Below are positions 3,106-20,639 of a stretch of DNA of 32,407 bases, one piece after another. Source of the stretch: Accumulibacter sp. Lineage in GTDB: Bacteria; Pseudomonadota; Gammaproteobacteria; Burkholderiales; Rhodocyclaceae. Location of the stretch: positions 1 through 32,407 of the forward strand of contig NZ_JAMTDQ010000024.1 of NCBI RefSeq assembly GCF_023806635.1. Reading direction: 5' to 3'. The position numbers and the translations under genes are program-made. The notes below the pieces were generated by a model. It was given only the letters and a program-made list of their open reading frames with translations. It was not told the DNA's origin and ran no database searches. Position 1 is the stretch's first letter; each line of letters begins with the position of its first letter.

Positions 3106-3187
3106 CGGCGGCAGTTTACTGCAACCGGCACCGCCGGCGATAGCCTGTCGCCAGGCGGCCGCCGGCAGATGGTGTAAACTGCCGCCG
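3106..3187. promoter_or_regulatory. Divergent intergenic region with 14-bp inverted repeat containing paired TAAACT boxes
   Basis: A perfect 14-bp inverted repeat (CGGCGGCAGTTTAC at 3106-3119, GTAAACTGCCGCCG at 3174-3187) lies between the divergent ybaK-like gene and the acyl-CoA dehydrogenase gene. Each arm carries TAAACT facing its own gene, in a position suited to a -10 element. The arms may therefore be two mirror-image promoter cores, or an operator for one regulator acting on both genes. No clear -35 boxes were seen. Confidence 0.5.
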
Positions 3188-6157: not shown

Positions 6158-8548
6158 ATGACCCGAAAAGCCAGGCGCCAGGCCGCCGTCACCACGCCCG
6201 CGGCAGCCGCCGTGCGGGCTGCCGCGAATGCCGCGCCAGGTGTTCCGGCGGCTCGGCAACAGCGGAACCTGCTGCCGCTCGGCCTGCTGCTGCTCTTCGC
6301 CGTCGCCATCGTCACCGGCATCGTCCTCTACCTGACGCGCGACCGCCTGCCCGAATCGCCAGCCCGCGCGGCCCCCGCGGCCCCCGTGGCGGGCGCCGCG
6401 GCCGACGGCACGCCAGCCGGCCACGTCGGAGCCAGCGTCTGCAAGAACTGCCACGAAGCCGAATACCAGGCGTGGTCCGGATCGAACCATGATCGCGCCA
6501 TGCAGCACGCAACGCCGGAGACGGTGCTCGGCGACTTCGCCGACGCCAGGTTCCGTCAACACGGCGTCGAATCCCGCTTCTACCGGCGCGGCGACGGCTT
6601 CTTCGTGCGCACCGAGGGTCCCGACGGCAAGCTCGCCGACTACGGGATCAGCTACACCTTCGGCGTCTACCCGCTGCAGCAGTACCTGGTCGCTTTCCCA
6701 GGCGGCCGCTACCAGGCGCTGTCGATCGCCTGGGACTCACGCCCGAAGGCGATGGGTGGACAACGCTGGTTCCACCTGCAACCCGAGCGCCGGGTCGGCC
6801 ACAAGGATGCGCTGCACTGGACGGGCAACTACCAGAACTGGGCCCTGCAGTGCGCGGAATGCCACTCGACCAACCTGCGCAAGGGCTACGACGCCGCCAG
6901 CAACACCTACCGCACCACCTTCAGCGAGATCAATGTCGCCTGCGAAGCCTGTCATGGTCCCGGTTCGCGCCATGTGGCGTGGGCCGCCGGGGCAAGGCCA
7001 CCGTATCCGGCGCAGGGCGACATCGGCCTGCCACGACTCGGCAGCCGCTGGCTCGAGGCGTGGAAGTTTCCTGCCGCCGACGCCCGCGTTGCCGTGCGCG
7101 AACACCCCGCCGACCCTGCCGGCATGAACGTCTGCGCCGCCTGCCATGCCCGCCGGTCAACCCTGAGCGAAGAGCGCAGGCCCGGCGCGGTACTCGCCGA
7201 CAGCCACCGGCTGGCGATGCTCACCGCCCCCAACTACCACGCCGATGGCCAGCAGCGGGAAGAGGTCTATGTCTGGGGCTCCTTCCTGCAGAGCCGGATG
7301 CAGCAGAGCGGCGTCACCTGCATGGACTGCCACGAACCGCACTCGCTGCAGACCCGCGCCAGGGGCAACGAACTCTGCAACCGCTGCCACAACGCCGCCG
7401 AGCATGATGCGCCGACGCACCACCGGCACCAGACCGGGGGCCCGGGCGCGCAGTGCATCAACTGCCACATGCCGACGCAGAACTACATGGTCATCCACGC
7501 CCGGCAGGACCACAGCCTGCGCGTTCCGCGCCCCGACCTCTCGCTCGCGCTCGGCACGCCGAACGCCTGCAACCAGTGCCACGTCGACCGCAAGCCGGAG
7601 TGGGCTGCGCAGGCGATGGACCGCTGGTACGGCAGGGCCTGGCGCGATCGCCCGAGCTACGGGCCGACGCTGCATGCGGGGGCAACGCGCGGCATGCAGG
7701 GCTTGCCCGGCCTGCTCGAACTCGCGCGCAACCCGGCGGCACCGGGCATCATCCGGGCAACGGCAGCGACCCTCGCCCAGCCACACGCCACCCCGGAGAC
7801 GCTGCAGACGGCGCACACGCTGCTCGCCGATCCCGATCCGCTGCTGCGCATCGCGGCACTCGGGCTGCTCGATGCGGCGCCACCCGATGTGCGCCTGCGG
7901 ATCGCCGCGCCACTCCTCTCCGACCCCGTGCGCGGCGTCCGCATCGAGGCGGCGCGCCTCCTCGCCGACGTTCCCGGCGAGCGATTCGGCGCCGCACGGC
8001 AGGCCGCGCAGGCGGCGGCGATGCAGGAATACGAGAACGCACTCGACCTGGATGCCGACTGGCCATCTGGCCGCGTCAACATCGGCATCCTGCGGCTGCG
8101 GCAGGGGCGTGGCGACGAGGCGCTGGCGGCCTTCGAACAGGCGATCGCGCTCGATCCACTGTTCGAGCCGGCTTACGTCAATCTCGCCGATACCCTGCGC
8201 CGGCTCGGCCGCGACGCCGAGGGAGAACGGGTGTTGCGGCGGGGGCTTGCCCAGCTGCCGCGGAGTGCCGAGCTGCACCACGCGCTCGGCCTGCTGCTCG
8301 TGCGCCAGGGCGACCAGCGAGCAGCGCTGCGCGAGATCTCGGAAGCCGCGCGCCTCGCCCCCGACAACCCGCGTTTCCTCTACGTCGAAGCGATCGCCCT
8401 GCACAGTGCCGGCAGGAAGAGCGAAGCCCTGGCACTCCTGCGCCGCGCCGACCAACGCCATCCCGGCAACCCCGACATCCTCGCCGCCCTCAAAACTTTC
8501 GGTGACAGTATACAAAACTCGCCATCGCCGGCATCACCCGGGAGGTGA
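6158..8548 (+). CDS. Membrane-anchored octaheme cytochrome c with C-terminal TPR domain
   Basis: Likely periplasmic electron carrier or multiheme redox enzyme. The start at 6158 gives 796 residues. A basic N-terminus and a membrane segment (about 39-59) act as anchor. Eight CxxCH heme sites follow, starting at Cys95, 232, 262, 326, 388, 407, 433 and 471. This layout is like the cytochrome c554/NrfA-like multiheme proteins that carry TPRs. Residues about 570-650 look like HEAT-type helical repeats, and about 660-780 hold TPRs (for example ALAAFEQAIALDPLFEPAYVNLADTLRRLG). The last ~15 residues are encoded by the transposase-linked repeat at 8501 and its continuation, so the native C-terminus was probably replaced. 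The 3' end overlaps the convergent transposase gene by 15 bp. Confidence 0.88.
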   Translation: MTRKARRQAAVTTPAAAAVRAAANAAPGVPAARQQRNLLPLGLLLLFAVAIVTGIVLYLTRDRLPESPARAAPAAPVAGAAADGTPAGHVGASVCKNCHEAEYQAWSGSNHDRAMQHATPETVLGDFADARFRQHGVESRFYRRGDGFFVRTEGPDGKLADYGISYTFGVYPLQQYLVAFPGGRYQALSIAWDSRPKAMGGQRWFHLQPERRVGHKDALHWTGNYQNWALQCAECHSTNLRKGYDAASNTYRTTFSEINVACEACHGPGSRHVAWAAGARPPYPAQGDIGLPRLGSRWLEAWKFPAADARVAVREHPADPAGMNVCAACHARRSTLSEERRPGAVLADSHRLAMLTAPNYHADGQQREEVYVWGSFLQSRMQQSGVTCMDCHEPHSLQTRARGNELCNRCHNAAEHDAPTHHRHQTGGPGAQCINCHMPTQNYMVIHARQDHSLRVPRPDLSLALGTPNACNQCHVDRKPEWAAQAMDRWYGRAWRDRPSYGPTLHAGATRGMQGLPGLLELARNPAAPGIIRATAATLAQPHATPETLQTAHTLLADPDPLLRIAALGLLDAAPPDVRLRIAAPLLSDPVRGVRIEAARLLADVPGERFGAARQAAQAAAMQEYENALDLDADWPSGRVNIGILRLRQGRGDEALAAFEQAIALDPLFEPAYVNLADTLRRLGRDAEGERVLRRGLAQLPRSAELHHALGLLLVRQGDQRAALREISEAARLAPDNPRFLYVEAIALHSAGRKSEALALLRRADQRHPGNPDILAALKTFGDSIQNSPSPASPGR
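8501..8513 (-). repeat. REP-like motif, left-end orientation
   Basis: GGTGACAGTATAC on the + strand, the reverse complement of GTATACTGTCACC. It lies inside the last codons of the cytochrome gene and forms an inverted pair with 9264-9276 around the RAYT gene. Confidence 0.8.
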
Positions 8549-9229
8549 AGCCTCCTCCTGGTCGTCAGCTTCGGGCCGTGGCCTGGGGCCGCGCTTCTGC
8601 GGTCGCAGCCGCCGATTCAGCCGACCTTCCAGTTCCTCGACGAACGCTTCCTCGCCCAGTGGTCGACCTGTTCGGGTATGGGCATGGATCTTGTCGACAA
8701 GGGACTGCTCCACCGCCGCACCGAGGTACTCGGGCCAGTTCCCAACCATGGCCAGCAGCGGCGCGACCCTTGCCAGGCCGTCGTCCTCTCCCCGCAGGTG
8801 TGCGCGGACACTCGACCACGGCCATTCCTCGGCATGCGCGCACAGGCCGGCACGAACCGGGTTGTTCTCGACGTAGCGCACGGCGGCCAGCAGGTGCGTC
8901 TCATCGAGCAGGAAGGAATGGAAGCGCTCCTGCCAGAGATGGCCCTGCCACCCCTCGCGAACATTGATGCGTCGCGTGAATCGCCGGTGCGTCTCGCTGA
9001 TCGCGCGGCGCAGGCCGTCGCTATCCTGCGGCACCATGATCAGGTGCACATGGTTCGGCATCAGGCAATAAGCCCACACCTCGGTCCCGGCAAGAGCACA
9101 TGAAGCCGACAACAGGCGCAGGTACTCGCGATAATCGTCGTCGCAGAAGAAGGTCTGCTGACGCCGGTTGCCCCGCTGCGTCACGTGATGCGGATAACCC
9201 GCCGCCACCACCCTTGCAAGTCTCGCCAC
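8534..9229 (-). CDS. RAYT / IS200-like Y1 (HUH) transposase
   Basis: REP-associated tyrosine transposase: a single-strand DNA nuclease thought to move or maintain REP/REPIN repeats. The start is GTG at 9229 (MARLARVVAAGYPHHVTQRGN), with GGAGG 6 nt upstream; the frame extends to 9298 but without support. The 231-residue length is typical. The HUH motif is in MPNHVHLI (His60, His62), and the likely catalytic Tyr119 is in VRYVENNPVRAGL. The C-terminus is Arg/Pro-rich and acidic, as in DNA-binding RAYT tails. It is bracketed by an inverted pair of the window's dispersed motif, about 35 bp from each gene end, which links enzyme and repeat family. It converges with, and slightly overlaps, the cytochrome gene. 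Confidence 0.93.
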   Translation of the reverse strand: MARLARVVAAGYPHHVTQRGNRRQQTFFCDDDYREYLRLLSASCALAGTEVWAYCLMPNHVHLIMVPQDSDGLRRAISETHRRFTRRINVREGWQGHLWQERFHSFLLDETHLLAAVRYVENNPVRAGLCAHAEEWPWSSVRAHLRGEDDGLARVAPLLAMVGNWPEYLGAAVEQSLVDKIHAHTRTGRPLGEEAFVEELEGRLNRRLRPQKRGPRPRPEADDQEEASPPG

Positions 9230-9263
9230 AGCTGTCCTCCAGAACACGTTTGCCGGGAGTTGA

Positions 9264-9276
9264 GTATACTGTCCCC
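9264..9276 (+). repeat. REP-like motif, right-end orientation
   Basis: GTATACTGTCCCC, 35 bp upstream of the transposase start. Paired inversely with the copy at 8501-8513; together they delimit a 776-bp RAYT unit. Confidence 0.8.
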
Positions 9277-9294
9277 GTGCGGGTGGAGGGATCC

Positions 9295-9353
9295 GCAACG
9301 CCGGGGAAGTTGCGCAGTCTCGTGGGAAGTTAACGCTGCTGTCGCCTTTTCCC
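9295..9353 (+). repeat. 59-bp direct repeat, left copy (contains degenerate REP motif)
   Basis: Begins GCAACGCCGGGGAAGTTGCG and ends in CTGTCGCCTTTTCCC. It matches 10572-10631 with a 1-bp gap and roughly a dozen mismatches by eye. The REP core here is degenerate (GTTAACGCTGCTGTCGCC at 9329-9346). The two copies flank the Rpn-type gene. Confidence 0.8.
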
Positions 9354-9397
9354 GACAGTGATACGATGAGGCTTCAGCGAGTTGGCGGAGACCGCAC

Positions 9398-10423
9398 ATG
9401 ACGGCGTTGAACAGCCCTCACGACCGCTTTTTCAAGGCGGTGTTCGGGCGGACCGAGGTGGCGGCGGAGTTTCTCGAGCGGTATCTGCCGGCGACAGCCG
9501 CGCAGGCACTGGACTGGAAGACCTTGCGCACCGCCAAGGATTCCTTTCTCGATCCGGAACTGGCGCTGCATCCCGCCGACCTGCTCTACACTGTCGATCT
9601 CCGCGGCGGCGGAGCCGGCTATGTGCACGTGCTGTTCGAACACAAAAGCTACGTCGAGTCGCGAATCGGCCTCGACCTCCTGCGTTACCGCGTGCGGATC
9701 TGGGAACAGTGGCTGAATGCCGGGAATTCAGGTCGACTGCCTGTTGTCGTACCGGTCGTGGTCCATCACGGCACGGCGACCTGGCGCGTGAGCCGGCAAT
9801 TCGCCGATGAGGTGGAAGACGTTCCGCCGCTGCGCGACTACGTGCCGGCATGCGTCTATCACCTGATCGACTTGAGCGGATACCGCGACGACGAGCTGCA
9901 GGGCGCGGTCATGCTGCATACGGCGCTGCTCACCCTGAAGTACATCTTCCGGAACGAGTTGAGCCAGCGGCTGCCGGAAATTCTGGGACTGCTGCGCGAC
10001 CTCGCGCAGAGCTCGATGGGCTTGGACTATGTCCGTACGCTCTTGCGGTACCTGGCGCAGGCGGCGAGCATCGATCGCTTGACCGGTGACCAGTTGCGCC
10101 AGGTGGTGACAGAAACTTTGAGTGGTGGAGGTGAACTCATGCTGACGATTGCCGAGCAATGGGAACAACAGGCGATGGAGAGAGGGATCGAGAAAGGGAT
10201 CGAGAAAGGAATCGAACAAGGCATCGAAAGGGGAATTGAACAAGGAATCGAGCAAGGCGAAGCACGGCTGCTGAAGCAGTTGTTGAGCTGGCGCTTCGGA
10301 GCCTTGCCATCCTGGGTCGAAAGCCAGCTCGCAGGCGCTGGGCCGGAGCGCCTGGAGGCATGGGCGAAGCGAGCACTCGATGCACCCGATCTCGCGACCG
10401 TGTTCGCCGAACGATCCCGGTAA
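9398..10423 (+). CDS. Rpn/YhgA-like family PD-(D/E)XK nuclease (transposase_31 domain)
   Basis: The family is annotated as recombination-promoting nuclease or putative transposase, and in E. coli RpnA-type proteins are DNA endonucleases with mobile-element or defence links. The 341-residue product starts MTALNSPHDRFFKAVFG, the usual Rpn N-terminus. The nuclease core is visible: Asp61 in ADLLYTVDL, then Glu81 and Lys83 in VLFEHKS. Near residues 262-285 it has tandem GIE(K/Q/R) repeats (DNA about 10180-10260), as is common before the DUF4351-like C-terminal part (LLKQLLSWRFGALPSWVES). GGCGGAG precedes the start. The gene sits between 59-bp direct repeats and next to the RAYT unit, suggesting it arrived as a module. 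Confidence 0.9.
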   Translation: MTALNSPHDRFFKAVFGRTEVAAEFLERYLPATAAQALDWKTLRTAKDSFLDPELALHPADLLYTVDLRGGGAGYVHVLFEHKSYVESRIGLDLLRYRVRIWEQWLNAGNSGRLPVVVPVVVHHGTATWRVSRQFADEVEDVPPLRDYVPACVYHLIDLSGYRDDELQGAVMLHTALLTLKYIFRNELSQRLPEILGLLRDLAQSSMGLDYVRTLLRYLAQAASIDRLTGDQLRQVVTETLSGGGELMLTIAEQWEQQAMERGIEKGIEKGIEQGIERGIEQGIEQGEARLLKQLLSWRFGALPSWVESQLAGAGPERLEAWAKRALDAPDLATVFAERSR

Positions 10424-10472
10424 CCGATCGGGATGTGAAAGGCCATCCGGAGCCGCGCCGCGGTCGGTACCC

Positions 10473-10530
10473 AAGGGGATCGGTGACTGATTGCCGATGT
10501 TGAACACCCGATGCGGCGCATCACTGCTCT
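10473..10530 (-). pseudogene. Remnant of a UDP-glucuronate epimerase gene
   Basis: The leftward frame reads APHRVFNIGNQSPIPL, matching APYRVFNIGNHQPVPL of the longer epimerase at 19406-20413. The DNA aligns without gaps to 19608-19665 with 10 mismatches in 58 positions by my count. Homology stops on both sides, so only a scrap of a diverged paralogue remains. It lies between the Rpn gene and its right-hand direct repeat. Confidence 0.75.
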
Positions 10531-10571
10531 GTAGACGCATTCAGCGGCGATCAACGGCGTATCCCGCTGAC

Positions 10572-10631
10572 GCAACGCCGGGGAACTTGCGAGGGCTGGT
10601 GGGGGAGTTAACCATACTGTCGCCTTTTCCC
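10572..10631 (+). repeat. 59/60-bp direct repeat, right copy (contains REP motif)
   Basis: Begins GCAACGCCGGGGAACTTGCG and ends in CTGTCGCCTTTTCCC. It contains a less degenerate motif, GTTAACCATACTGTCGCC (10607-10624). Pairs with 9295-9353 and ends 46 bp before the ATPase start. Confidence 0.8.
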
Positions 10632-10677
10632 CATTCAAGCCTTGCAATCAACGCACCAAAGTTCCACAATTGCAAGC

Positions 10678-11841
10678 ATGATAAAGCGAACGCTGGCTAC
10701 CGAACTCAAGGCCGCAGTCGACTACACCCCTGCCGTTGCGCTGCTTGGACCGCGTCAGGTCGGGAAAACCACGCTGGCCCTGGAAATCGGCCGCCAGATC
10801 GACGCACTCTATCTTGATCTCGAGTCGGAACAGGACCGCGCCAAGCTCGCCCAACCCGAGCTCTACCTGGCAGACCATCAAGACAAGCTGGTCATCATCG
10901 ACGAAGTGCATCGTGCCCCCGGGTTGTTTCCAGTACTGCGCGGATTGATCGACCGCGCTCGGCGAGCAGGTCGCACAACCGGTCAATATCTGCTGTTGGG
11001 GTCCGCGTCGCCTGATCTGCTCAAGCAGTCAGGCGAAAGCCTGGCCGGACGCATCAGCTATCTTGAGTTGGCGCCTTTCAGCGTACTGGAAACACCCAAT
11101 CTGCCAAGCGATGAACTCTGGCTACGCGGTGGGTTTCCGGACAGCCTGCTCGCGGCCAATGCAGCCCGCAGCCTGCGATGGCGCCAGGATTTCATCCGCA
11201 CCTATCTGGAGCGCGATATTCCACAGTTCGGGCCTCGCATCGCCGCCGAAACCCTGCGTCGCTTCTGGGGCATGCTGGCCCATCATCAGGGCGGTCTGCT
11301 CAACATCGCCCAATTCGCGCGCAACCTGGGCGTAGACGCCAAGACCGCCGCGGCCTATCTCGACCTGTTGGCGGACTTGTACCTCGTGCGCCGTCTGCCC
11401 GCCTGGCATGCCAACCTGGGCAAGCGTCTGGTCAAATCGCCCAAGGTCTATGTGCGCGACAGCGGCCTGGTCCATGCCCTGCTGGCCATCCCCGAGAAGG
11501 AAACCCTGCTGGCACATCCGGTGGTCGGGCAAAGCTGGGAATGCATGGTCATGGAAAACCTGCTCATCGCCGCTGCCGGCAAGGCACAAGGTTACTTCTA
11601 TCGCACCAGCGGCGGTGCCGAAATCGACCTCCTGCTGGTTTGGCCGGACAACAGCCTATGGGCGGTCGAAATCAAGCGCAGCCTCAATCCAAGAGTCGAA
11701 CGCGGCTTTCATGCCGCCTGTGAAGACCTGGCCCCCGCGCGCAAGTTCGTCGTCTACCCCGGCCAGGAACGCTATCGAATGGCCCACGACATCCAGGCCG
11801 TCTCACTGCTCGAACTGGCAACCCGAGTTGCCGAAGGCTGA
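10678..11841 (+). CDS. AAA_14/DUF4143 ATPase (first copy)
   Basis: P-loop ATPase of the family pairing AAA_14 with a C-terminal DUF4143 domain; the biological role is unsettled. The ATG at 10678 gives 387 residues; a TTG at 10642 is a weaker alternative. Walker A is GPRQVGKTT (24-32) and Walker B is KLVIIDEVH (Asp75, Glu76). A sensor-like region reads YLLLGSASPDLL. The C-terminal part ends with a PD-(D/E)XK-like set, GGAEIDLLLVWPD then AVEIKRS, so a nuclease-like domain is possible. It starts 46 bp after a REP-containing direct repeat, and a REPIN follows 130 bp after the stop. It is related in architecture to the ATPase at 16289 but clearly diverged. Confidence 0.88.
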   Translation: MIKRTLATELKAAVDYTPAVALLGPRQVGKTTLALEIGRQIDALYLDLESEQDRAKLAQPELYLADHQDKLVIIDEVHRAPGLFPVLRGLIDRARRAGRTTGQYLLLGSASPDLLKQSGESLAGRISYLELAPFSVLETPNLPSDELWLRGGFPDSLLAANAARSLRWRQDFIRTYLERDIPQFGPRIAAETLRRFWGMLAHHQGGLLNIAQFARNLGVDAKTAAAYLDLLADLYLVRRLPAWHANLGKRLVKSPKVYVRDSGLVHALLAIPEKETLLAHPVVGQSWECMVMENLLIAAAGKAQGYFYRTSGGAEIDLLLVWPDNSLWAVEIKRSLNPRVERGFHAACEDLAPARKFVVYPGQERYRMAHDIQAVSLLELATRVAEG

Positions 11842-11973
11842 CTACAGCACCGGCAGGGCCACGCCGCTCCGATTACCGATACCCACCCTCATGGCGATGA
11901 GGCGCAGCCGAAGTGGCAATCCAGTGCCACCCGACGCGGTGGTCACAAGTTACAGGTCGCTCGCCGCTAATTC

Positions 11974-12052
11974 GGTGACAGTATATTAATTCGGAACTGC
12001 GCCTGCTTGCTCCCCCGATCCAGGGCACGAAGAAATTAAGTATACTGTCACC
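11974..12052. repeat. 79-bp REPIN-like palindromic unit
   Basis: GGTGACAGTATAT at 11974 and GTATACTGTCACC ending at 12052 form inverted ends, extended inwards by TAATT and AATTA. The ~45-bp middle is non-palindromic, so the unit could fold into a hairpin on single-stranded DNA. This is the classical REPIN layout and a plausible substrate for the RAYT at 8534-9229. No gene lies inside. Confidence 0.75.
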
Positions 12053-12151
12053 ATTTTCAACCGTTTTCCGCGAAAGCGCGACGACAACTCGCCGAGATCT
12101 CGCAAAAAAGCAAGACCTGACCGCTGGCGCACTGAAAATGCCTCCCCGCAT

Positions 12152-12164
12152 GGTACAAAATGTA
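12152..12164. promoter_or_regulatory. Putative toxin-antitoxin operator (GTACA-AAA-TGTAC palindrome)
   Basis: A perfect palindrome, GTACA-N3-TGTAC, ends about 32 bp before the antitoxin start at 12197. This is where Phd/YefM-type antitoxins usually bind to autoregulate. TGTACA-type half-sites also precede the second antitoxin at 15156-15175. Confidence 0.55.
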
Positions 12165-12196
12165 CAATTTGATCGTAACGTTTTATGGAGATCGCC

Positions 12197-12445
12197 ATGC
12201 GCACCGTAACTGCCACCGCCGCCAAGCAGGGTCTGGCCCAGGTCATCGAAACTGCTGCCCGGGAACCCGCGGTCATCCAGCGCCAGAAGCGGGACGTGGC
12301 CGTCGTTCTTTCCATCCAGGAATATGAGCGGCTCACCCGTCTCAATGTCGCCGAGTTCCAGCGCTTTTGCGACCGTGTGGGGGCCGCTGCCGAAGCCGCC
12401 GGCATGACCGAGGAGACGCTGGCCCAACTGCTGGCCGATGATTGA
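12197..12445 (+). CDS. Phd/YefM-family antitoxin
   Basis: Likely antitoxin and autorepressor of the following PIN toxin. The start at 12197 (MRTVTATAAKQGLAQVIE) has GGAG 6 nt upstream, which favours it over the in-frame ATG at 12185. The 82-residue product has the Phd/YefM N-terminal pattern: an early beta strand, a helix with AKQGLAQVIE, and the VIQRQKRDVAVVLSIQEYERL segment. The C-terminal half (FCDRVGAAAEAAGMTEETLAQLLADD) would neutralise the toxin. It overlaps the toxin start by 8 nt, indicating translational coupling. A TGTAC palindrome upstream fits autoregulation. Confidence 0.88.
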   Translation: MRTVTATAAKQGLAQVIETAAREPAVIQRQKRDVAVVLSIQEYERLTRLNVAEFQRFCDRVGAAAEAAGMTEETLAQLLADD

Positions 12446-12863
12446 GCAATGCCTGTGGGTGCTGGACACCAACGTCCTGGTCAGCCGCATGCTGACGCCC
12501 AAGAGCATGGCCGGCCAAGCCGTTGACCACGCCCTGGAGCGAGGCATCCTGCTGGTTTCCGAGGCTACGTTGAATGAACTGGCAGAGGTGCTGGGCCCGT
12601 CCAGGTTCGACCCGTACGTCAGCCGCGCGGACCGTAGACAGTTCCTGGAATTGCTGGGCGGCGTGGCCAGGGTCATACCCATAACCCGCATGTTGCACGC
12701 CTGCCGCGATCCCAAGGACGACAAGTTCCTTGACGTGGCGGTGAGCGGCAACGCTGATGCCATCGTTACCGGCGACCGGGATTTGCTCGAGTTGGACCCG
12801 TTTCACAGCGTGCGCATAGTCAGTCCGGCAGACCTCCTGGCCGGGACCTGGCACCGCCTCTAA
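12438..12863 (+). CDS. PIN-domain toxin (putative toxin-antitoxin component, PIN_3-like)
   Basis: Likely Mg2+-dependent ribonuclease toxin. The 141 residues show the PIN acidic set: Asp10 in VLDTNVLVS, Glu47 in SEATLNELAEVL, Asp95/Asp99 in RDPKDDKFLDVA, and Asp113 in TGDRDLL. The pattern resembles the COG1569-type toxins. The start overlaps the antitoxin end by 8 nt. The pair is intact as read, unlike the yefM-yoeB pair at 14594-15138. REP copies lie on both sides of the module (12040-12052 and 13026-13038), both in the same orientation. Confidence 0.9.
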   Translation: MIEQCLWVLDTNVLVSRMLTPKSMAGQAVDHALERGILLVSEATLNELAEVLGPSRFDPYVSRADRRQFLELLGGVARVIPITRMLHACRDPKDDKFLDVAVSGNADAIVTGDRDLLELDPFHSVRIVSPADLLAGTWHRL

Positions 12864-13025
12864 CGGTCATTGCAGTTGCGGCCGCCCCGGATGATGAAGG
12901 AAGATGCGGGCGGGGAGGCATCGGGTAGAGGTCGCGCAATATTTTGGTGGTCGGACCCCGAAAGCTAACGCGACCCGCTGAACCGACTCGTACCCCGGAT
13001 TGCTGCCATCGAGCGCACACATTAA

Positions 13026-13038
13026 GTATACTGTCACC
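13026..13038 (+). repeat. REP-like motif
   Basis: GTATACTGTCACC, preceded by ATTAA as in the REPIN arm at 12036. It lies between the PIN toxin and the 3' end of the convergent EamA transporter gene, 33 bp from the transporter stop. Confidence 0.8.
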
Positions 13039-13070
13039 GCTTTCGACCGCCCACGGGTCGGCAATCGTCG

Positions 13071-14111: not shown

Positions 14112-14386
14112 CGGGACGCATTCTCCTCGCTTTTTCCTTCAATTGACAACGTGATCTCGGCGAGCAGCAAACTGCTGGCCACTTCCGCCACAGGAGTTGC
14201 CGGCGACAGCCGGCCACTGCCAAATCCCTGCCCATACGGAAAGTGACCGCGCGCACAGTCACGAGACCACCAGCGAGAAACCCAGGGCAGAGAGGCCGCG
14301 AAGGGCAGGATGGCACGGGAACGGCAGCGGCGCCGCCCGCGAATCCAACCCGCGAAGTTCCGCCAGGGCGCGCCACGGCCAGACGC

Positions 14387-14413
14387 AAAAAAAGCCCGAA
14401 ACGGGTTCGGGCT
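14387..14413 (-). terminator. Rho-independent terminator, leftward
   Basis: The stem AGCCCGAA (14394-14401) pairs with TTCGGGCT (14406-14413) around CGGG. On the minus strand it is followed by a run of eight T. It would stop leftward transcription arriving from the yefM-yoeB remnant, or mark the end of a gene now lost, and it insulates the EamA gene. Confidence 0.8.
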
Positions 14414-14523
14414 CTCGAAGGTGGTGCTGCCGAGGCTGCCGAATGAAGGCCAACCGTCCGGGCGCGATGGAAACCACGCCGCGCACCCTGGATCCATCGG
14501 ATGAAAAGGCGCTCTCGCATTAA

Positions 14524-14565
14524 ATATACTGTCCCCGCATTAACACAATTACATATACTGTCCCC
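14524..14565 (+). repeat. Two tandem REP-like motifs
   Basis: ATATACTGTCCCC occurs at 14524-14536 and again at 14553-14565, in the same orientation 29 bp apart, followed by a partial echo GTCCCCGTTTCTA (14573-14585). The double copy lies just beyond the 3' end of the broken yoeB. Confidence 0.75.
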
Positions 14566-14593
14566 GTTTCTAGTCCCCGTTTCTACGTGGATT

Positions 14594-14863
14594 TCAATAG
14601 TGATACTGCCCCTGCAAGAACTCCACGCGATCGGCTTTCACCAAGTAGACACAGCGATGCTCTTGGGTCATGCGCCGCGACCATACGTCACCGCCCAGGT
14701 ACTTCAGAGGCTCTGGCTTGCCGATCCCGTCAAATGGGTCCCTCAACACCGCCTCTACCAGTTCAAGGAGACGTCTGGCTGTACGACGATCAGTCTCGAC
14801 CCATTAGCGCAGGTCCTCGATAAACTCCGGCTGGAACACCGCAAGCCGGGCGACCTTAGCCAT
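14594..14863 (-). pseudogene. yoeB: YoeB/Txe-family toxin gene with in-frame TAA at codon 20
   Basis: Intact, it would be a ribosome-dependent mRNA interferase. From the ATG at 14863 the frame reads MAKVARLAVFQPEFIEDLR, then TAA (14804-14806), then WVETDRRTARRLLELVEAV, and continues to YLGGDVWSRRMTQEHRCVYL and the terminal FLQGQYHY. The last His-Tyr pair and the Arg before MTQEHR are the family's catalytic residues. The stop replaces the aromatic residue of the usual DLxYW pattern, consistent with Tyr (TAC/TAT) to TAA. The frame is otherwise undamaged over 89 residues, so the loss looks recent, or is a sequencing error. It lies directly after the frameshifted antitoxin. Confidence 0.85.
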
Positions 14864-15138
14864 CAAACCCCAGTTCCTGCTTCAGGGTATTCACAGGCGT
14901 CGGCTGCACCTCGCCCCCCCCGAGCGCGTGCCAGGGCAGAGAGCATTCGCTCTGCGTTCTTGGGGGAACGCAGAAGGTGAGCGGTTTCTGTAAGACTCTC
15001 CAGTTCGTCCGCAGCAATAATGGCCACTGCCCCGCCGGAACGGCGACGCACCACCACAATCTCGCGATCATCCACGGCCCGATCCATCAGCGCTTTCAAC
15101 TGATCACGGGCCTGGCTATATGTTGTCTCGATGGTCAT
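14856..15138 (-). pseudogene. yefM: YefM-family antitoxin, frameshifted at a run of eight G
   Basis: The start at 15138 (MTIETTYSQARDQLKALMDRA) has GGAG 6 nt upstream. The N-terminal ~75 residues are a normal YefM/Phd domain. After ALARARGG the reading frame slips at a homopolymer (eight C on the + strand, 14914-14921) and ends in an unrelated tail at 14863. The other frame continues EVQPTPVNTLKQELGFDG to a stop at 14856, which is the normal YefM C-terminus and would overlap yoeB by 8 nt. DNA binding may survive, but toxin binding is probably lost. Phase variation or a sequencing error in the homopolymer are alternatives. Confidence 0.82.
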
Positions 15139-15155
15139 AGCCAACTCCAGATAAC

Positions 15156-15175
15156 TTGTACAGAATCATTGTACA
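15156..15175. promoter_or_regulatory. Two direct TTGTACA half-sites before yefM
   Basis: TTGTACA occurs at 15156-15162 and 15169-15175, a spacing of 13 bp (just over one helical turn), 18 bp upstream of the antitoxin start. YefM-type operators carry TGTACA hexamers, so this is a likely autoregulatory site. The Phd-PIN pair has related half-sites. Confidence 0.65.
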
Positions 15176-15241
15176 TAAAGCCCTGTTGCATCCTGCACCT
15201 TTTCACCTCGGAATACGCTGACGGAATGTGGTGACTCATTC

Positions 15242-15254
15242 GGTGACAGTATAC
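15242..15254 (-). repeat. REP-like motif, left-end orientation
   Basis: GGTGACAGTATAC within ATTCGGTGACAGTATACTCA. It lies upstream of the yefM promoter and forms an inverted pair with 15965-15977, bracketing 736 bp that hold no recognisable intact gene. Confidence 0.8.
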
Positions 15255-15740
15255 TCAATGCATGCGCCCCGGCCGTGGGCAATCGGCGTGGCAGCATCCC
15301 GGGCCTTGACTTCGTGCCTTCGCAACCCGGATCTCTCGTATGGCCGACGCGTTCCCGCGCGATCCGGCCGGCGAACGCCGGACGCTGGCGATCGGGACAA
15401 CGCAACGCCGGCGCAGCCGCTGCGGTCGGGGCGTGCTACACCCTCCCCGGCTGCCAACCGTGCCAACGACTTCGCCGACCGGCAGCGCGCGACCACACCG
15501 GCTCGTGCCCTGTGCCTCGCGCCCCTTGAACCGAAGCGTCGACCGCTGTGGCCGGAACGATTGGAGCGCGAGCGGGACGCTCTGCCTGCCCGGCGAGGTT
15601 TGGCTGCGGGCAAGGAACACCACCTGACCCCGGCGCGTGCAACGGGGAGGCCAGACGGTCGCACGGGCTGCGGCGGATCAACGGGGTCTGCACGCCTGAG
15701 ATCAAGACCATGCTCGGCAGCGACAAACCGGAACGCGAGC
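15255..15740. other. Gene-less GC-rich DNA inside a REP-bracketed segment
   Basis: Several long frames exist on both strands, but all read as Arg/Pro/Ala-rich translations typical of non-coding high-GC DNA. I recognise no domain. It probably represents decayed chromosomal sequence to the left of the dehydrogenase remnant at 15741. Confidence 0.45.
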
Positions 15741-15801
15741 CATCCGATGGCGTGGCATTCGAGCCCGCGGTTGCGGGCGAGGGCCGGGTCGAAGAAGCTG
15801 C
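15741..15801 (-). pseudogene. Remnant of the 3' end of a UDP-glucose dehydrogenase gene
   Basis: The leftward frame reads FFDPALARNRGLECHAIG, matching [18 protein letters not shown] at the C-terminus of the gene at 17878-19206. The DNA aligns without gaps to 17891-17950 with about 13 mismatches in 60, mostly at third codon positions. It is thus a diverged paralogue once under selection, not a fresh copy. Homology ends on both sides. Confidence 0.78.
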
Positions 15802-16288
15802 GCTCGATCCGATCTCGAATGCCGCCGTCCTGGCAGACGAGGCCGACCACCGGCAGTGACGTCGGATGAACCCCGAAACACGGCGCCGACGCAGACAGGT
15901 CGGCTCCTCAGCTTGCGGGCGCTCGGCTCCCGTATCCTATCGGGGATCGCCCGCCTGCAATTAAGTATCCTGTCCCCACAAAAGCGGAGACGCTGTTGCT
16001 CTCCCTGACGAAGCCGACGCCGAAAACCGGCGGCAAGCGGTCCTCCTGCTTACAGCGGCCGGAACGTCTTGCGTGCCCTTCTCGCCAAAGCCAGCAGTCG
16101 CGTCCACTGGAGGATCCACTTCTGTCGCCCCATGACCAGGCACGACCATCTGCCATCCGAGAGACAGCCATGCCCGGCTGTCGTGCGGACTGCGTAGCAC
16201 CAGAGAGCGTTTGGCTTACTGCCGCCGTTTTCGCCACGCGGATCGGTAAAAAGTGACAAACTGATGATCCCGTTGATAAAATGTCAGC
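15802..16288. other. Intergenic stretch before the second DUF4143 ATPase
   Basis: It contains the REP copy at 15965-15977. Between 15980 and 16259 a leftward frame (SLFTDPRGENGGSKPN near its start) could be part of a lost mobile-element gene, but I cannot assign it. AT-richer DNA just before 16289 (TTGATAAAATGTCAGC) is a plausible promoter/leader for the ATPase. Confidence 0.4.
15965..15977 (+). repeat. REP-like motif, one substitution
   Basis: GTATCCTGTCCCC, preceded by ATTAA. It differs from the consensus at one position (A to C) and pairs inversely with 15242-15254. Confidence 0.7.
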
Positions 16289-17518
16289 ATGTATCGTCAC
16301 AGAATGGTCTCCGAACGGTTGCAACGGCTGGTGGAAGCCTTTCCAGTGGTCGTTCTCAGTGGTGCCCGCCAAGTTGGCAAGACCACCTTGCTCCGCCACC
16401 TTTTCCCCAAACTCGACTACGTGGTGTTCGACGCCAGCCTGGACGTCGAAAATGCGCGGCGGGAGCCCGATCTTTTTCTGCGCAACCATCCCGCACCGGT
16501 CATCCTGGATGAAATCCAGTATGCGCCCGAGGTAGTGGCAGCCATCAAGCGTCACGTCGACCGTGACCCCCATCGTGTGGGCCAATATCTGGTGACCGGA
16601 TCGCAACAGTGGCAGGTTCTGCGTTCCGTTTCGGAAAGCCTGGCCGGACGTGCAGCCTTCCTGGACCTCTATGGTTTTTCCCTGCAGGAAATCGCCAATT
16701 CAGATACCGGCTGGCTAAGCCGCTGGCTCGAAGCGCCGGATGCCTTCTGCGACTGGAGCCGCCACGCTGCACTTCACGAAACCAATCTGCCGTTATGGCT
16801 CTGGCGGGGAAGCCTGCCCCGCGCAACCGAAATCGACGAAGACCTGATACCGGACTTCTGGGCCGGCTACCACCGCACTTACGTCGAGCGAGATGCCAGG
16901 CTGGCCGGTGGCATCGAAGACTGGCAGGACTTTGGCCGCTTCGTTCGTCTGATGGGCGCGCTGACCGCCCAGGAAATCAACTACAGCCAGTTGGGCCGGG
17001 AAATCGGGATGACCCCACAAACCGCCCGGCGTTGGTTGGGCATCATGGAAGGCACGTATCAGTGGTTTTCCCTCCCGGCCTTCTCGGGAAACCCCGCCAA
17101 GCGAGTCTCCTTACGCCCCAAAGGACACCTCGCTGACACCGGCCTGGCCTGCCACCATGCGCAAATCTCCTCTCCCCGGGCCTTGACCGCCCACCCCCTG
17201 TTCGGCGCCTTGTTCGAAACGGCCATGGTCAGTGAACTGATCAAACAAGCTTCCCGGCTACCCACCCGCCCAACATTTCACCACTGGCGCGCCGCCGGCG
17301 GGGCCGAGGTCGACATCCTCCTGGAACGTGACGGCATGCTCTATCCCATTGAGATCAAGCTCACCGCCAACCCAAACCGGCGCATGGCAAAAGGTATCGA
17401 AGCCTTCCAGGCCGCACATGCCCATTTGAACTGTGGCCCAGGCGCACTCCTCTGCCCCGTGGAACAAACGCGCTGGGTCAGTGAAAACGTCTTGGCAATA
17501 CCGTGGAACCTGATTTGA
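16289..17518 (+). CDS. AAA_14/DUF4143 ATPase (second copy)
   Basis: Same architecture as the ATPase at 10678 but strongly diverged. The 409 residues include Walker A GARQVGKTT (25-33) and Walker B PVILDEIQ (Asp74, Glu75), then TGSQQWQVLRSVSESLAGR, the sensor-like block typical of the family. The DUF4143 part includes YHRTYVERDAR. The C-terminus again has a PD-(D/E)XK-like set, GGAEVDILLERDG then YPIEIKLT. The start at 16289 follows a short AT-richer leader. The stop lies within the start of a cluster of REP end fragments (17528-17584). The function of this family is not established; nuclease, transport and toxin-like roles have all been suggested by context. Confidence 0.88.
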   Translation: MYRHRMVSERLQRLVEAFPVVVLSGARQVGKTTLLRHLFPKLDYVVFDASLDVENARREPDLFLRNHPAPVILDEIQYAPEVVAAIKRHVDRDPHRVGQYLVTGSQQWQVLRSVSESLAGRAAFLDLYGFSLQEIANSDTGWLSRWLEAPDAFCDWSRHAALHETNLPLWLWRGSLPRATEIDEDLIPDFWAGYHRTYVERDARLAGGIEDWQDFGRFVRLMGALTAQEINYSQLGREIGMTPQTARRWLGIMEGTYQWFSLPAFSGNPAKRVSLRPKGHLADTGLACHHAQISSPRALTAHPLFGALFETAMVSELIKQASRLPTRPTFHHWRAAGGAEVDILLERDGMLYPIEIKLTANPNRRMAKGIEAFQAAHAHLNCGPGALLCPVEQTRWVSENVLAIPWNLI

Positions 17519-17527
17519 TGAATTCGA

Positions 17528-17584
17528 TGAATTCGGTGACAGGATGAATTCGGTGACATGAATTCGGTGACAGTATACTCAATG
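17528..17584 (-). repeat. Cluster of one full and two truncated REP left ends
   Basis: ATGAATTCGGTGACAG occurs at 17528-17542, again at 17544-17558 (ending GTGACA), then in full at 17559-17578 as TGAATTCGGTGACAGTATAC followed by TCAATGG. The first two copies stop just before or within the TATAC core. It begins only 10 bp after the ATPase stop codon. Confidence 0.75.
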
Positions 17585-17862
17585 GCAAGCTCGGACAGCT
17601 CACACCTCGCCGCCCTCATCCCCCCAGCGCCATCTTTCGCAACAACAACCCGCGGGGTAATTGACCACACCGCCCTCTGGCACGATGGGCTGGGGTGGAT
17701 TGAAGCAACCTCAGGGCAGCGCTTGGCTGGCACGCCGCGCATTACGCTGTAGGAACCCGTTTCATCGGGCGATTTGAACTGACCGTGAGGTGACGATCCT
17801 CCCGATCACCTCAACTGCCCACAACAATCCGCCGACTGTCGGCCAGAAGCCTCCCAAGATAG
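17585..17862. other. Gene-less segment between inverted REP ends
   Basis: No credible gene. It includes an 8-bp inverted repeat, TGAGGTGA/TCACCTCA (17786-17793 and 17806-17813), without a T tract. The segment is bracketed by the REP left-end cluster (17528-17584) and the right end (17863-17875), resembling the 15242-15977 unit. Confidence 0.45.
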
Positions 17863-17875
17863 ATATACTGTCCCC
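17863..17875 (+). repeat. REP-like motif abutting the UDP-glucose dehydrogenase 3' end
   Basis: ATATACTGTCCCC ends 2 bp from the dehydrogenase stop codon (17878-17880). The repeat therefore sits exactly at the gene boundary and could act as a transcript end for leftward transcription. Confidence 0.75.
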
Positions 17876-17877
17876 AA

Positions 17878-19206
17878 TTACGCTTCCCCTCGCCCGATGG
17901 CGTGATACTCGAGCCCCAGGCTGCGGACGAGGGCGGGGTCGAAAAGGTTGCGGCCGTCGAAGATCAGCGGCTGCTTGAGCAGCGCCCGCATCTGCTCGAA
18001 GTCCGGGCTCTTGAACGCTCGCCACTCGGTGACGATCAGCAGCGCATCGGCATCGCGCAGCGCGTCCGCCTGGTGGCTGGCGAAGCTTAGCCCCGGCAGG
18101 TCGCCGAACACCCGCCGCGCTTCGTCCATCGCCACCGGGTCGTACGCCCGGATCGCCGCGCCGCGGCGCAGCAGTTCGTGCACGATCACCCGGCTCGGCG
18201 CTTCGCGCATGTCGTCGGTGTTCGGCTTGAAGGCCAGGCCCCAGAGGGCAAAGCAGCGTCCCTGCAGATCCTCGCCGAAGCGGGCGACGACCTTGTCGAC
18301 CAGCACCCGCTTCTGGCTATCGTTCGCCGCCTCGACCGCAGTCAGCACCCGCAGATCAACGCCCAGGTCGTGGCCGGTGCGGATCAGCGCCTTCACGTCC
18401 TTGGGAAAACACGATCCCCCGTAGCCGGTACCGGCGTAGAGAAAGTGGGTGCCGATGCGCGGGTCGCTGCCGATGCCGTGCCGCACCAGTTCGATGTCGG
18501 CGCCGACCCGCTCGGCCAGCCGCGCCAGTTCGTTCATGAAGCTGATGCGCGTCGCCAGCATGGCGTTGGCCGCGTACTTGGTGAGTTCGGCGCTGCGCGT
18601 ATCCATCAGCAGCAGCTTGTCGCGGTTGCGGGAGAACGGCGCGTAGATCGCCCGCATCAGCAACCTGGCGCGCTCGTCGTCGGCGCCGATGATGATGCGG
18701 TCGGGGCGCATGAAGTCGTCGACCGCGGCGCCTTCCTTGAGAAACTCCGGGTTGCTGACGACGGCGAAGTCCACGCTCTCGCCGCGTTCGGCCAGCACTT
18801 CCTGCACTGCGGCGCGTACCCGGTCGGCGGTGCCGACCGGCACCGTGCTCTTGTCGACGATCACCTTGTAGTCGGTCATGTGCTGGCCGATGCTGCGCGC
18901 GGCGGCCAGCACGTACTGGAGATCGGCCGAACCGTCCTCGTCGGGCGGCGTGCCGACGCCGATGAACTGCAGCGTCCCGTGATGCACCGCGGCGGCGATG
19001 TCGGTGGTGAATTGCAGCCGGCCATCGGCGGCATTGCGCTTGACCATCTCTTCCAGACCCGGCTCATGGATCGGGATGCCGCCGCTGTTGAGGATCTCGA
19101 TCTTGCGCTTGTCGACATCGAGACAGAGCACGTGGTTGCCCATTTCCGACGGGCAGGAGCCGGTGACCAGGCCGATCTAGCCGGTACCGATAACGGTGAC
19201 TTTCAT
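17878..19206 (-). pseudogene. ugd: UDP-glucose 6-dehydrogenase with TAG at codon 10
   Basis: The enzyme oxidises UDP-glucose to UDP-glucuronate with 2 NAD+. The full-length frame starts at 19206: MKVTVIGTG, then TAG (19177-19179), then [22 protein letters not shown]. The stop falls in the GxGxxG NAD loop, where Tyr is usual (GTGYVGL). Beyond it the frame is intact to 17878, with KSTVPVGT, the catalytic GGSCFPKD cysteine, and LGLEYHAIG near the end. With the stop ignored it has 442 residues, a normal length. An ATG at 19143 could give a 421-residue protein lacking the first Rossmann strand and glycine loop, unlikely to bind NAD. A point nonsense mutation is the simplest reading; a base-call error must be excluded. 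Confidence 0.85.
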
Positions 19207-19228
19207 GAGATGCCAACTTTCCTTTCAA

Positions 19229-19404
19229 CCTAGATTCCTCTGTTAAGCCTTGACCGGATTTGATGAACGCCAGATTTGGCAAGGCTTTGCGGCCGATTTT
19301 GGCAACTGCGCCACAGTTCCTTTTGGGTGTCCCAGAGACATTCGAAAAATCCAATCTTCATAGCAACTTAGCTGCCATTCCTGGCTTCAACTGAGGAATC
19401 TAGG
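19229..19404. mobile_element. 176-bp MITE-like element with terminal inverted repeats and 5-bp target duplication
   Basis: The ends CCTAGATTCCTC (19229-19240) and GAGGAATCTAGG (19393-19404) are perfect inverted repeats, with imperfect extension inwards (TGTTAAGCC against AGTTGAAGCC). TTCAA flanks both sides (19224-19228 and 19405-19409), consistent with a target duplication. There is no coding capacity. It separates the epimerase from the dehydrogenase and ends at the epimerase stop codon. It is unrelated to the REP family. The parent IS family cannot be named with confidence. Confidence 0.75.
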
Positions 19405-19405
19405 T

Positions 19406-20413
19406 TCAAACCTGGTAGTAGTGGCGATACCAATCGACAAAGCGCGCGATGCCTTCAGACAGCGGCGTGCCCGGCGCGAAGTCGATCCACTGTTCGAGGG
19501 TGGCGGTGTCGGCGTAAGTGGACGCCACATCGCCCGGCTACATCGGCAGCAGGCGCTTCTCGGCCTGGCGCCCGAGCTGCTGCTCGATACAGCCGATGAA
19601 GTCCATCAAGGGGACCGGTTGATGATTGCCGATGTTGAACACCCGGTACGGCGCGTCGCTACTCGCCGGATCGGGGTTGGCCGCAGTGTAATGGGGATCG
19701 GGCGCCGGCACCCGGTCGTTCACCCGCAGCACGGCTTCGACGATGTCGTCCACGTAGGTGAAGTCGCGCTGCATGCGGCCGTGGTTGAAGACGTCGATCG
19801 GCCGACCTTCAAGGATCGCCCGGGTGAACAGGAAGGGCGCCATGTCGGGCCGGCCCCACGGTGCGTAGACGGTGAAGAAGTGCAGGCCGGTCGTCGGCAG
19901 ACGATAGAGGTGGCTGTAGGTGTGCGCCATCAGCTCGTTGGCCTTCTTGGTCGCGGCGTACAGGCTGACCGGATGATCGACGTTGTCGCGTTCGGCGAAG
20001 GGCATGCGGGTGTTGCCGCCGTAGACGCTGGAACTCGAGGCGTAGACCAGATGCTGAACCGCGTGCTGGCGGCAGCCTTCGAGCACGTTCACGAAGCCGA
20101 CCAGATTGCTGTCGACGTAGGCGTTGGGGTTGAGCAGCGAGTAGCGCACACCGGCCTGGGCGGCCAGGTGGATCACCCGCTCGAAACCTTCACCGGCGAA
20201 CAACGCAGCCATCGCCGCCCGGTCGCCAATATCCCTCTCGATGAAGCGAAAATCGCCCTGCCCTGAGAGGCACGCCAGGCGGGCGTGCTTGAGGTGAACG
20301 TCGTAGCAATCGTTAAGGTTGTCGATGCCGACGACCGTGTCACCGCGACGAAGGAGGCTCTGCGCGGTGTGCATGCCGATGAAACCGGCGGCGCCGGTGA
20401 GGAGGATTTTCAA
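19406..20413 (-). pseudogene. UDP-glucuronate 4-epimerase-type SDR with TAG at codon 292
   Basis: An extended SDR that would convert UDP-glucuronate to UDP-galacturonate. It starts at 20413 with MKILLTGAAGFIGMH (the GxxGxxG NAD site); the catalytic Tyr and Lys are in SLYAATKKANE. The product halts at TAG (19538-19540) after RLLPM, but the frame continues as PGDVASTYADTATLEQWIDF to DWYRHYYQV and TGA at 19406. The usual family sequence here is LPMQPGDV, so CAG (Gln) to TAG is likely. Without the stop it has 335 residues, the normal length. The 291-residue truncated form keeps the NAD domain but loses the last ~44 residues of the substrate domain; residual activity cannot be excluded. Confidence 0.85.
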
Positions 20414-20528
20414 GCTTGCTGACTCCGATCAAACCGGTACCTTACACCGCCGTGCGGCAAAAGGAAGTGGGTCTCCCCATTTCTCAAGGAACAACCCGCA
20501 CACGGGGCGGCGCATGACCTGGAGTTAA

Positions 20529-20541
20529 GTATACTGTCCCC
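20529..20541 (+). repeat. REP-like motif
   Basis: GTATACTGTCCCC, preceded by GAGTTAA. Upstream of the epimerase start, in the opposite orientation to the gene. Confidence 0.8.
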
Positions 20542-20620
20542 GTATTCATTCCAACTTGGTAGGGAATGCGAGGCAGTATGGCAGTTGCGAGCCGCCGCCC
20601 GCGACCACCTAGAGAATGGA

Positions 20621-20639
20621 GTTAACGATACTGTCCTCG
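20621..20639 (+). repeat. Degenerate REP-like motif
   Basis: GTTAACGATACTGTCCTCG, about 90 bp from the copy at 20529 and in the same orientation. It is followed by GTCCCCGTTTTT, echoing the double copy at 14553-14585. Confidence 0.6.

Follow-up and report, generated by a model that had tools for sequence, protein, structure and literature searches.

The stretch of DNA analysed here, which we call the window, comprises 32,407 nucleotides of contig NZ_JAMTDQ010000024.1 from Accumulibacter sp. (assembly GCF_023806635.1). Our subject is a gene in it for a RAYT-like Y1/HUH tyrosine transposase (RAYT, REP-associated tyrosine transposase; REP, repetitive extragenic palindromic), together with a family of short repeats, two of which flank that gene. 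The gene (positions 8534 to 9229, minus strand) encodes 231 amino acids when read from a GTG start codon; the mechanically called open reading frame reaches 9298. An earlier reading, made without database searches (the sequence-only reading), had described a RAYT gene bracketed by a pair of repeats, and both points held. The protein is that of a real Y1/HUH gene, scoring 42.7 bits with the Pfam Y1_Tnp profile and 82.0 bits with the NCBIfam REP_Tyr_transpos model, just over the cut-off of 80. Repeats lie at 8501-8513 (minus strand), 20 bp beyond the stop codon, and at 9264-9276 (plus strand), 34 bp from the start codon at the upstream end of the element. The best match in the PDB, by sequence and by fold, was 4er8 (E. 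coli TnpA-REP). Moreover, the residues of the HuH and Y---NP motifs (H83, H85, Y142, N146 and P147) were invariant across 22 aligned rows. The AlphaFold model (mean pLDDT 82) predicts helices at the C terminus (188-193, 198-210 and 217-227), with no Pfam helix-turn-helix match at an E value of 0.1.

A search of the window for GTATACTGTC[AC]CC with up to two mismatches gave 12 matches, each with at most one mismatch, ranging from 8501 to 20541, and no clear copy in the remainder of the window (shuffled sequences gave 0.38 expected matches and a maximum of 2). Allowing three mismatches added degenerate family-like copies at 10612-10624 (plus strand), 20626-20638 (plus strand) and 17535-17547 (minus strand, inside the reiterated outer flank of the copy at 17566), as well as eight matches that look like chance (at 3107, 3114, 3174, 12627, 14054, 20639, 27021 and 30291). 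The sequence-only reading had counted about 15 copies between 8.5 and 20.64 kb and none elsewhere, which agrees with the 12 clear and 3 degenerate copies. It had also listed four inverted pairs (8501/9276, 11974/12052, 15242/15977 and 17566/17875), all of which are present, and every clear left-oriented copy in the window is indeed followed by a right-oriented one. Besides the pair around the transposase gene, these are a 79-bp pair (11974-12052; copies 11974-11986, minus, and 12040-12052, plus), a 736-bp pair (15242-15977; copies 15242-15254, minus, and 15965-15977, plus) and a 310-bp pair (17566-17875; copies 17566-17578, minus, and 17863-17875, plus). The 79-bp pair has a weak relative (74%) in genome G023 (contig C109:22810-22892), and the 310-bp pair has relatives in G023 (C109:23957-24262, 83%) and G021 (C15:47101-47410, 92%). 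The other clear copies, all on the plus strand, are solo copies at 13026-13038 and 20529-20541, a copy at 14524-14536, and a copy at 14553-14565 with an outer tandem scar, of a kind described below, whose 13-nt unit ends at +7. The terminal repeat appears to be non-palindromic and about 25 nt long, reading roughly gAATTwa-GTATACTGTC[AC]CC-gWAWT.

To count the motif in the whole genome and in relatives, as the sequence-only reading had proposed, we used the exact motif in 61 genomes (28 of the genus and 33 outside it). The window's own genome of 4.47 Mb held 14 exact copies of GTATACTGTCMCC and 48 copies of RTATACTGTCMCC at no more than one mismatch, with none for a reversed-pattern control; three of the 48 (GTATACTGTCGCC) lack the A+T flank and look unrelated. 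Exact copies were found in seven genomes, six in the genus (G000, 14; G003, 14; G021, 7; G023, 23; G027, 14; G015, 1) and one outside it (G046, a single copy); note that the enzyme was not searched for in the 33 outside genomes. Of the 28 congeners, 21 had a transposase match at an E value of 1e-15, and only G000, G027, G003, G023, G021 and G013 had one at 76% identity or more, the threshold by which we define the clade. Each of these six carriers has one full clade transposase, open from the conserved start (223 amino acids in G021, 231 in the other five). Among the congeners, presence of the clade predicted repeat number: at least 7 exact copies were present in five of the six carriers and in none of the 22 non-carriers, 21 of which have no copy and one of which (G015) has one. 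In the remaining carrier, G013, the ends are variants (AAAGGGACAGTATACTTAA and ATATACTGTCCCC). Two non-carriers, G015 and G025, hold 10 and 9 copies of RTATACTGTCMCC at no more than one mismatch, including 1 and 3 exact ones (for exact GTATACTGTC[AC]CC the counts are 1 and 0), and seem to have lost the transposase gene; six further non-carriers had 0 to 5 such copies, none exact, with 0 to 4 for the reversed control. Among the 22 congeners lacking the clade, we found no case of abundant repeats in a genome that never carried the enzyme. (A sister family of repeats, whose conserved inner arm, ...CTCTGGAATGAATTTCATATACTGTCACCTCTATT, is longer, forms dense arrays on G000 contig C57:1200-17300, locus L086, and likewise at G023 C165, G021 C15:26-31 kb, G003 C56 and G015 C1:4.467-4.469 Mb; three of ten C57 proteins scanned are Rpn-like, with DUF4351 and weak Transposase_31 matches.)

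Comparison across genomes indicates that the transposase gene and both terminal repeats form a unit (8497-9276) that is present at different sites. Homology of the window transposase with G027 or G023 spans 8497 to 9275-9276, i.e. it stops at the outer edges of the repeats. G003 has the element at the same site as the window, and at that site G015 and G025 retain a decayed repeat together with a remnant of the 3' end of the transposase gene (79.5-79.9% identity over window positions 8303-8605). The full element of G023 begins 10 nt past the stop codon of guaA, which encodes GMP synthase, and a 156-nt remnant lies at a separate site in the same genome. Matches over the whole guaA query were obtained from 27 of the 28 genomes (G012 gave weak matches only), and no repeat was seen in the roughly 90 nt printed downstream of it in the 24 readable of the 26 genomes other than G023. 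At this site G024, which has no element, reads TAGCCGCAGGTTCGG and G023 reads TAGCCGCAGTTTCGGGGACAG, so that the former is a possible near-empty site. Deletion derivatives with the same ends were found too: one of 407 bp on another contig of G021 (C40:14734-15140) is 95% identical over 274 nt to the full element of that genome, and one of 528 bp in G013, perhaps a local duplicate, lies next to the full element there. Because the enzyme gene and its two ends occur at different sites in different species and with internally deleted derivatives, they behave as a unit defined by its ends.

These observations bear on the idea that the island has a regulon in which the motif serves as operator or promoter element. 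Its GTATAC core is palindromic, as such an element might be, whereas the copies bound blocks that are present elsewhere, they carry tandem scars on their outer side, and none of the 22 congeners that lack the clade has more than one copy of the motif. We find this explanation hardly credible.

We then asked whether the repeat differs where the enzyme differs. The transposase of the congener G007, which is cut by a contig end, is 50% identical to that of the window and has GTAAACTGTCACC beside its gene; the G007 genome holds eight exact copies of GTAAACTGTCACC and no exact GTATACTGTC[AC]CC. More widely, 41 loci of transposase relatives were fetched and the flanks of 36 were printed, 3 of them from Accumulibacter. 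Most of the Desulfobulbales, Geobacter and Desulfuromonas relatives have ends GGGGACAGTATA[CT]; gammaproteobacterial relatives have GGGGACAGTTTAC, GGGGACAGTTAAC or GGGGACAGTGAC; Nitrospirae and Phycisphaerae loci have GGGGACACCATAC; and Planctomycetes loci have GGGGACACGAACC or GGGGACACAATAC. GGGGACA stood beside most of the relatives whose flanks were printed; some loci showed a single end, and in L245, L258 and L260 none was clear. On a tree of 31 transposases (27 from the fetched loci, that of the window and three from Accumulibacter), the end class, assigned by eye and mostly from the upstream end, with L234 (GTTAAC) put with TAAAC, changes 6 times; the minimum possible is 5, the mean for shuffled classes was 11.5, and none of 200 shuffles was as low. 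The G007 protein was placed, on a long branch and with modest support, among gammaproteobacterial rows with TAAAC and GTCAC ends. Because many copies are found, among the 28 congeners, only with the clade at 76% identity or more, the G007 motif differs and the motif tracks the enzyme tree, the transposase and the repeat are a real cognate pair that changes together across phyla. (Other Y1 genes of the congeners have long inverted ends of their own, GGGGTCAGGTCTTTC and GGGGCCAGGCTCATTT, at G016 L073, G008 L074, G017 L085, G005 L064 and G002 L066, and some of these loci carry outer tandem stutters; 12 further congener Y1 loci showed no such long inverted ends.)

Inverted pairs are enriched beyond chance, a point on which the sequence-only reading had depended. 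Among 225 copies listed from several genomes (an incomplete census), adjacent copies no more than 800 bp apart comprised 35 outward-facing pairs (left then right), 8 inward-facing pairs and 33 in the same direction; with five dense contigs excluded, the numbers were 27, 5 and 15. Sixteen of the 35 outward pairs fall into sets with related interiors (7 derived from the transposase element, 4 of the 310-bp type, 3 of a type found on C57, and 2 of 98 bp). For the other 19 an interior relative was not detected, 3 being too short for comparison and others short enough to be missed.

The canonical version of the RAYT-REPIN explanation proposed by the sequence-only reading has a RAYT acting on REPs and REPINs as in E. 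coli and Pseudomonas, that is, on GTAG-tagged imperfect hairpins whose pairs form larger hairpins. The window's system shares with these a Y1 nuclease, a cognate dispersed repeat and inverted pairs (PMC3116915, PMC8049555, PMC2817692, PMC8266576, as far as these sources were covered), and the NCBIfam equivalog score, the closeness of the solved structure 4er8 and the excess of outward pairs are all as a canonical RAYT would have them. The repeat itself, however, does not look like a REP. GT[AG]G is absent from the consensus by column composition; complementarity between the two sides of a copy was 2.80 as compared to 2.64 ± 0.07 after shuffling (223 copies) and so not clearly higher; stems of at least 5 within a copy numbered 19 as compared to 19.4 (223 copies); and fixed pairing diagonals had z scores of at most 1.42 (220 copies). 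(A hairpin in each repeat, AATT...AATT and GAGTTTC...GAAACTC, looks convincing by eye, and was rejected because it did not exceed shuffled partners.) Canonical REPs usually exceed 100 copies per genome according to the relevant part of PMC2817692, whereas only the 48 copies at no more than one mismatch were found here. Moreover, transposition of the whole unit is reportedly not apparent for REPtrons (PMC6006769), unlike for the element studied here, which occupies different sites. Thus, the cognate transposase-repeat pair of the earlier reading stands, and its terms REP and REPIN in the strict sense are not supported, given the missing GTAG and hairpin, tens of copies rather than hundreds, and a majority of outward pairs with no detected interior relative. 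We regard a canonical RAYT as quite improbable, and TIRYT, or TIRtron, as the better filing.

Target-site duplications were not found at the edges of outward pairs (1.56 as compared to 1.61 after shuffling, 36 pairs), as is to be expected of HUH enzymes. This result also bears on whether the repeats might instead terminate short elements that a DDE-type transposase mobilises, with the Y1 gene as a passenger. Outward terminal inverted repeats and many gene-less pairs would suit such elements; that there is no target-site duplication, that from phylum to phylum the repeat varies along with the Y1 protein, and that Pfam scans of 19 window proteins found no DDE transposase (a search confined to these proteins) leave this explanation very little chance. 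Together, the lack of a hairpin and of a target duplication fits linear ends as the substrate of a Y1 enzyme and argues against both REP hairpins and DDE enzymes. The outer patches of pair ends were weakly alike in the inverted sense (1.75 as compared to 1.23 ± 0.27 after shuffling, with a largest shuffle of 2.08), and the outer A+T patch may travel partly with the element.

We conclude that the gene and its repeats are probably a TIRYT system, or TIRtron, of the Y1/HUH superfamily, in which a 231-amino-acid nuclease would act on terminal repeats of its own. This little-studied class, of Y1 genes that have GGGGWSAS ends and small families of repeats, was reported in 2013 (Di Nocera, PMC3733652), and we place the system in it because the Y1 motifs, the bracketing GGGGWSAS ends and the dispersed repeats are all found here. 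In the window, GGGGACAG at 9264-9276 fits GGGGWSAS and GGTGACAG at 8501-8513 has one mismatch. As in the TIRYTs of that paper, a Y1 gene lies between terminal inverted repeats and the repeat is also dispersed as singles, dimers and groups; presence and absence within a genus, movement of the unit, deletion derivatives and the outer tandem scar are found only here, as compared to the parts of PMC3733652 that were covered. The system is thus a further TIRYT member, with a better documented coupling of enzyme and repeat. Twenty of 26 TIRYTs fall into TnpA-Y1 subclass 2.1, which is RAYT group 1 (Quentin 2018, PMC6006769) and the second largest Y1 subclass, present in 14.9% of strains; in the part of that paper available, no REP-like sequences were found near subclass 2.1 genes. 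The window enzyme, which may belong to subclass 2.1, shares with it the HuH and Y---NP motifs and perhaps a C-terminal extension, and differs in having an evident dispersed cognate family. For a Y1 subclass in which that survey found no REP-like partner, a partner repeat is evident here from presence and absence, co-variation and changing sites, and the database name "REP-associated" may indicate the wrong kind of substrate for this transposase clade. With IS200/IS605 elements (in part from PMC8266576) the system shares the HUH fold, the single tyrosine and the absence of a detected target duplication; unlike their subterminal hairpins, the ends here are linear inverted repeats, with one full clade transposase per carrier. 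Our literature search on GTATACTGTC and GACAGTATAC gave no title on such repeats among the matches listed, and found no paper joining Accumulibacter with RAYTs; within the RAYT, REPIN and TIRYT literature searched, as far as its sources were available, the outer scar, the co-variation and the different sites of the unit were not found in print.

Many repeat copies carry a perfect tandem duplication of 8-22 nt, which starts in or just beside the motif and ends in the outer flank. We found this scar on the outer side of 41 of 246 non-redundant copies, in a mirror test on the inner side of 1 of 246, and in 103 of 19,785 random windows of the same loci (0.5%); under a stricter setting the figures were 31 of 220 outer and 0 of 220 inner. 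In 34 of the 41 cases the first scar unit could end at +7 to +9 past the motif, whereas the start of the unit varies (14 scar intervals include motif position 8, before GTC, and 9 include position 10). At 37 loci next to relatives outside Accumulibacter the scar was present on 20 of 95 outer and 1 of 95 inner sides, and for 14 of these 20 an end at +7 to +9 is possible. Paralogous Accumulibacter Y1 families with ends GGGGTCAGGTCTT and GGGGCCAGGCTCA gave 4 of 15 outer and 0 of 15 inner, in what is a small sample. Plain replication slippage in an A+T-rich flank, with no role for the enzyme, would account for tandem duplications where the outer flank is A+T-rich, as it is for about five positions. 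The inner flank, however, is about equally A+T-rich and yet scarred only once, 33 of the 41 joints have micro-homology of 0 or 1 nt, and the unit end is nearly fixed while the start varies; we consider slippage unlikely. If a strand is nicked at a fixed place outside the end, and end fragments are re-copied or re-joined there, the outer edge should be nearly fixed and the inner edge variable, as is seen, and we infer that the scar is the footprint of a strand being nicked and re-joined at one fixed point. If so, it predicts the position of the cut to within a few bases. Enzymes of the E. coli TnpA-REP type cut at CT (one also at CA), a choice thought to be made via the GTAG motif (PMC8266576, in part); a start at position 8, between ACT and GTC, would agree with a CT cut, which is only suggestive.

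In the mechanism that we propose, the 231-amino-acid single-strand nuclease would recognise the non-palindromic terminal repeat of about 25 nt, and two inverted copies bounding its gene would let the gene move with them as one unit. Pairs that are internally deleted or lack the gene would be non-autonomous derivatives, and solo copies would be dispersed and, where compared, old. A nick made by the enzyme in one strand, 7-9 nt outside the motif, would leave a 3' end, and re-synthesis and re-joining from that nick would sometimes append truncated end fragments as the scar. Recombination or transposition at repeat ends may also have helped to rearrange the island. A bolder version holds that TIRYTs are true transposases with a chemistry of their own, in which the fixed nick 7-9 nt outside a linear end is followed by target-anchored partial copying that spreads end fragments and leaves a tandem "stutter"; we offer this tentatively and give it rather less than an even chance. 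LINE elements likewise leave truncated copies, to which the stutter of truncated ends may be likened. If this version were true, the stutter would be a diagnostic fossil across the family, with its GTATAC-, GTATGG-, GGGGTCAG- and GGGGCCAG-type ends.

Several observations weigh against the TIRYT account as a whole. G013 has a clade transposase, and yet the exact motif search of its genome gave no copy. Eleven of the 20 scars from other phyla come from two contigs of a single Phycisphaerae genome, and the scar could arise from slippage at a lesion made by something other than the enzyme. The outward pairs for which no interior relative was detected also count here. Precise empty sites at two G000 C4 loci had edges that could not be placed, the intergenic DNA being too diverged (at one of the two, G015 and G025 hold decayed motif remnants), and, because the sample is one genome per species, it contains no filled and empty pair within a species. 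Finally, all 9 dispersed G000 copies in a comparison with G027 occupy matching positions there, in blocks of about 88-93% identity; the count of 9 out of 9 is biased by the choice of these copies for similar-looking flanks, with 5 other dispersed copies outside the comparison. Current activity may therefore be low or nil, and the comparison shows that much of the repeat population is old; persistence over long times has been reported for REPINs (PMC8049555, in part). Between G000 and G027, one pair has a different interior and one copy is decayed in G000. (At G027 C12:27567-27606 and G000 C4:16351, which are the same locus in two species, with similar outer flanks, the pair interior is 14 nt and about 74 nt, respectively, and the left copy of the G000 pair is degenerate.)

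Comparison of 19.9 kb of the window with the genomes of seven relatives revealed a mosaic. The block ends between 8400 and 20700 form 83 clusters, 12 of which come within 5 bp of a repeat, where 3.6 were expected (P about 0.0004). The other 71 lie elsewhere, often at gene edges, so that the repeats are at most one cause of the mosaic. The sequence-only reading had the system seeding and perhaps shuffling an accessory island, of which some shuffling is plausible on these figures.

Other features of the island were seen in passing. An Rpn-type nuclease gene (9398-10423) lies between what appear by eye to be direct repeats of about 60 bp, near 9295-9355 and 10573-10635, which contain degenerate remnants of the terminal repeat. 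AAA_14/DUF4143 ATPases are encoded at 10642-11841 and 16289-17518; both match the PADLOC candidate model PDC-S01, and the second is a 1.26-kb block with 93-96% identity in G015, G023, G025 and G027. A Phd/YefM antitoxin and PIN-domain pair (12185-12863) adjoins the 79-bp inverted pair. Between the genes for UDP-glucose dehydrogenase and an epimerase, a stretch of about 185 bp (about 19224-19409) with inverted ends CCTAGATTCCTC...GAGGAATCTAGG has a 97% relative at G021 C1:53203-53387, and its two neighbouring blocks adjoin in G021 C15; it looks like an unrelated short mobile element. The epimerase frame itself (19538-20413) stops at a TAG near 19540 while homology with relatives runs on to about 19405, and the gene is probably a pseudogene.

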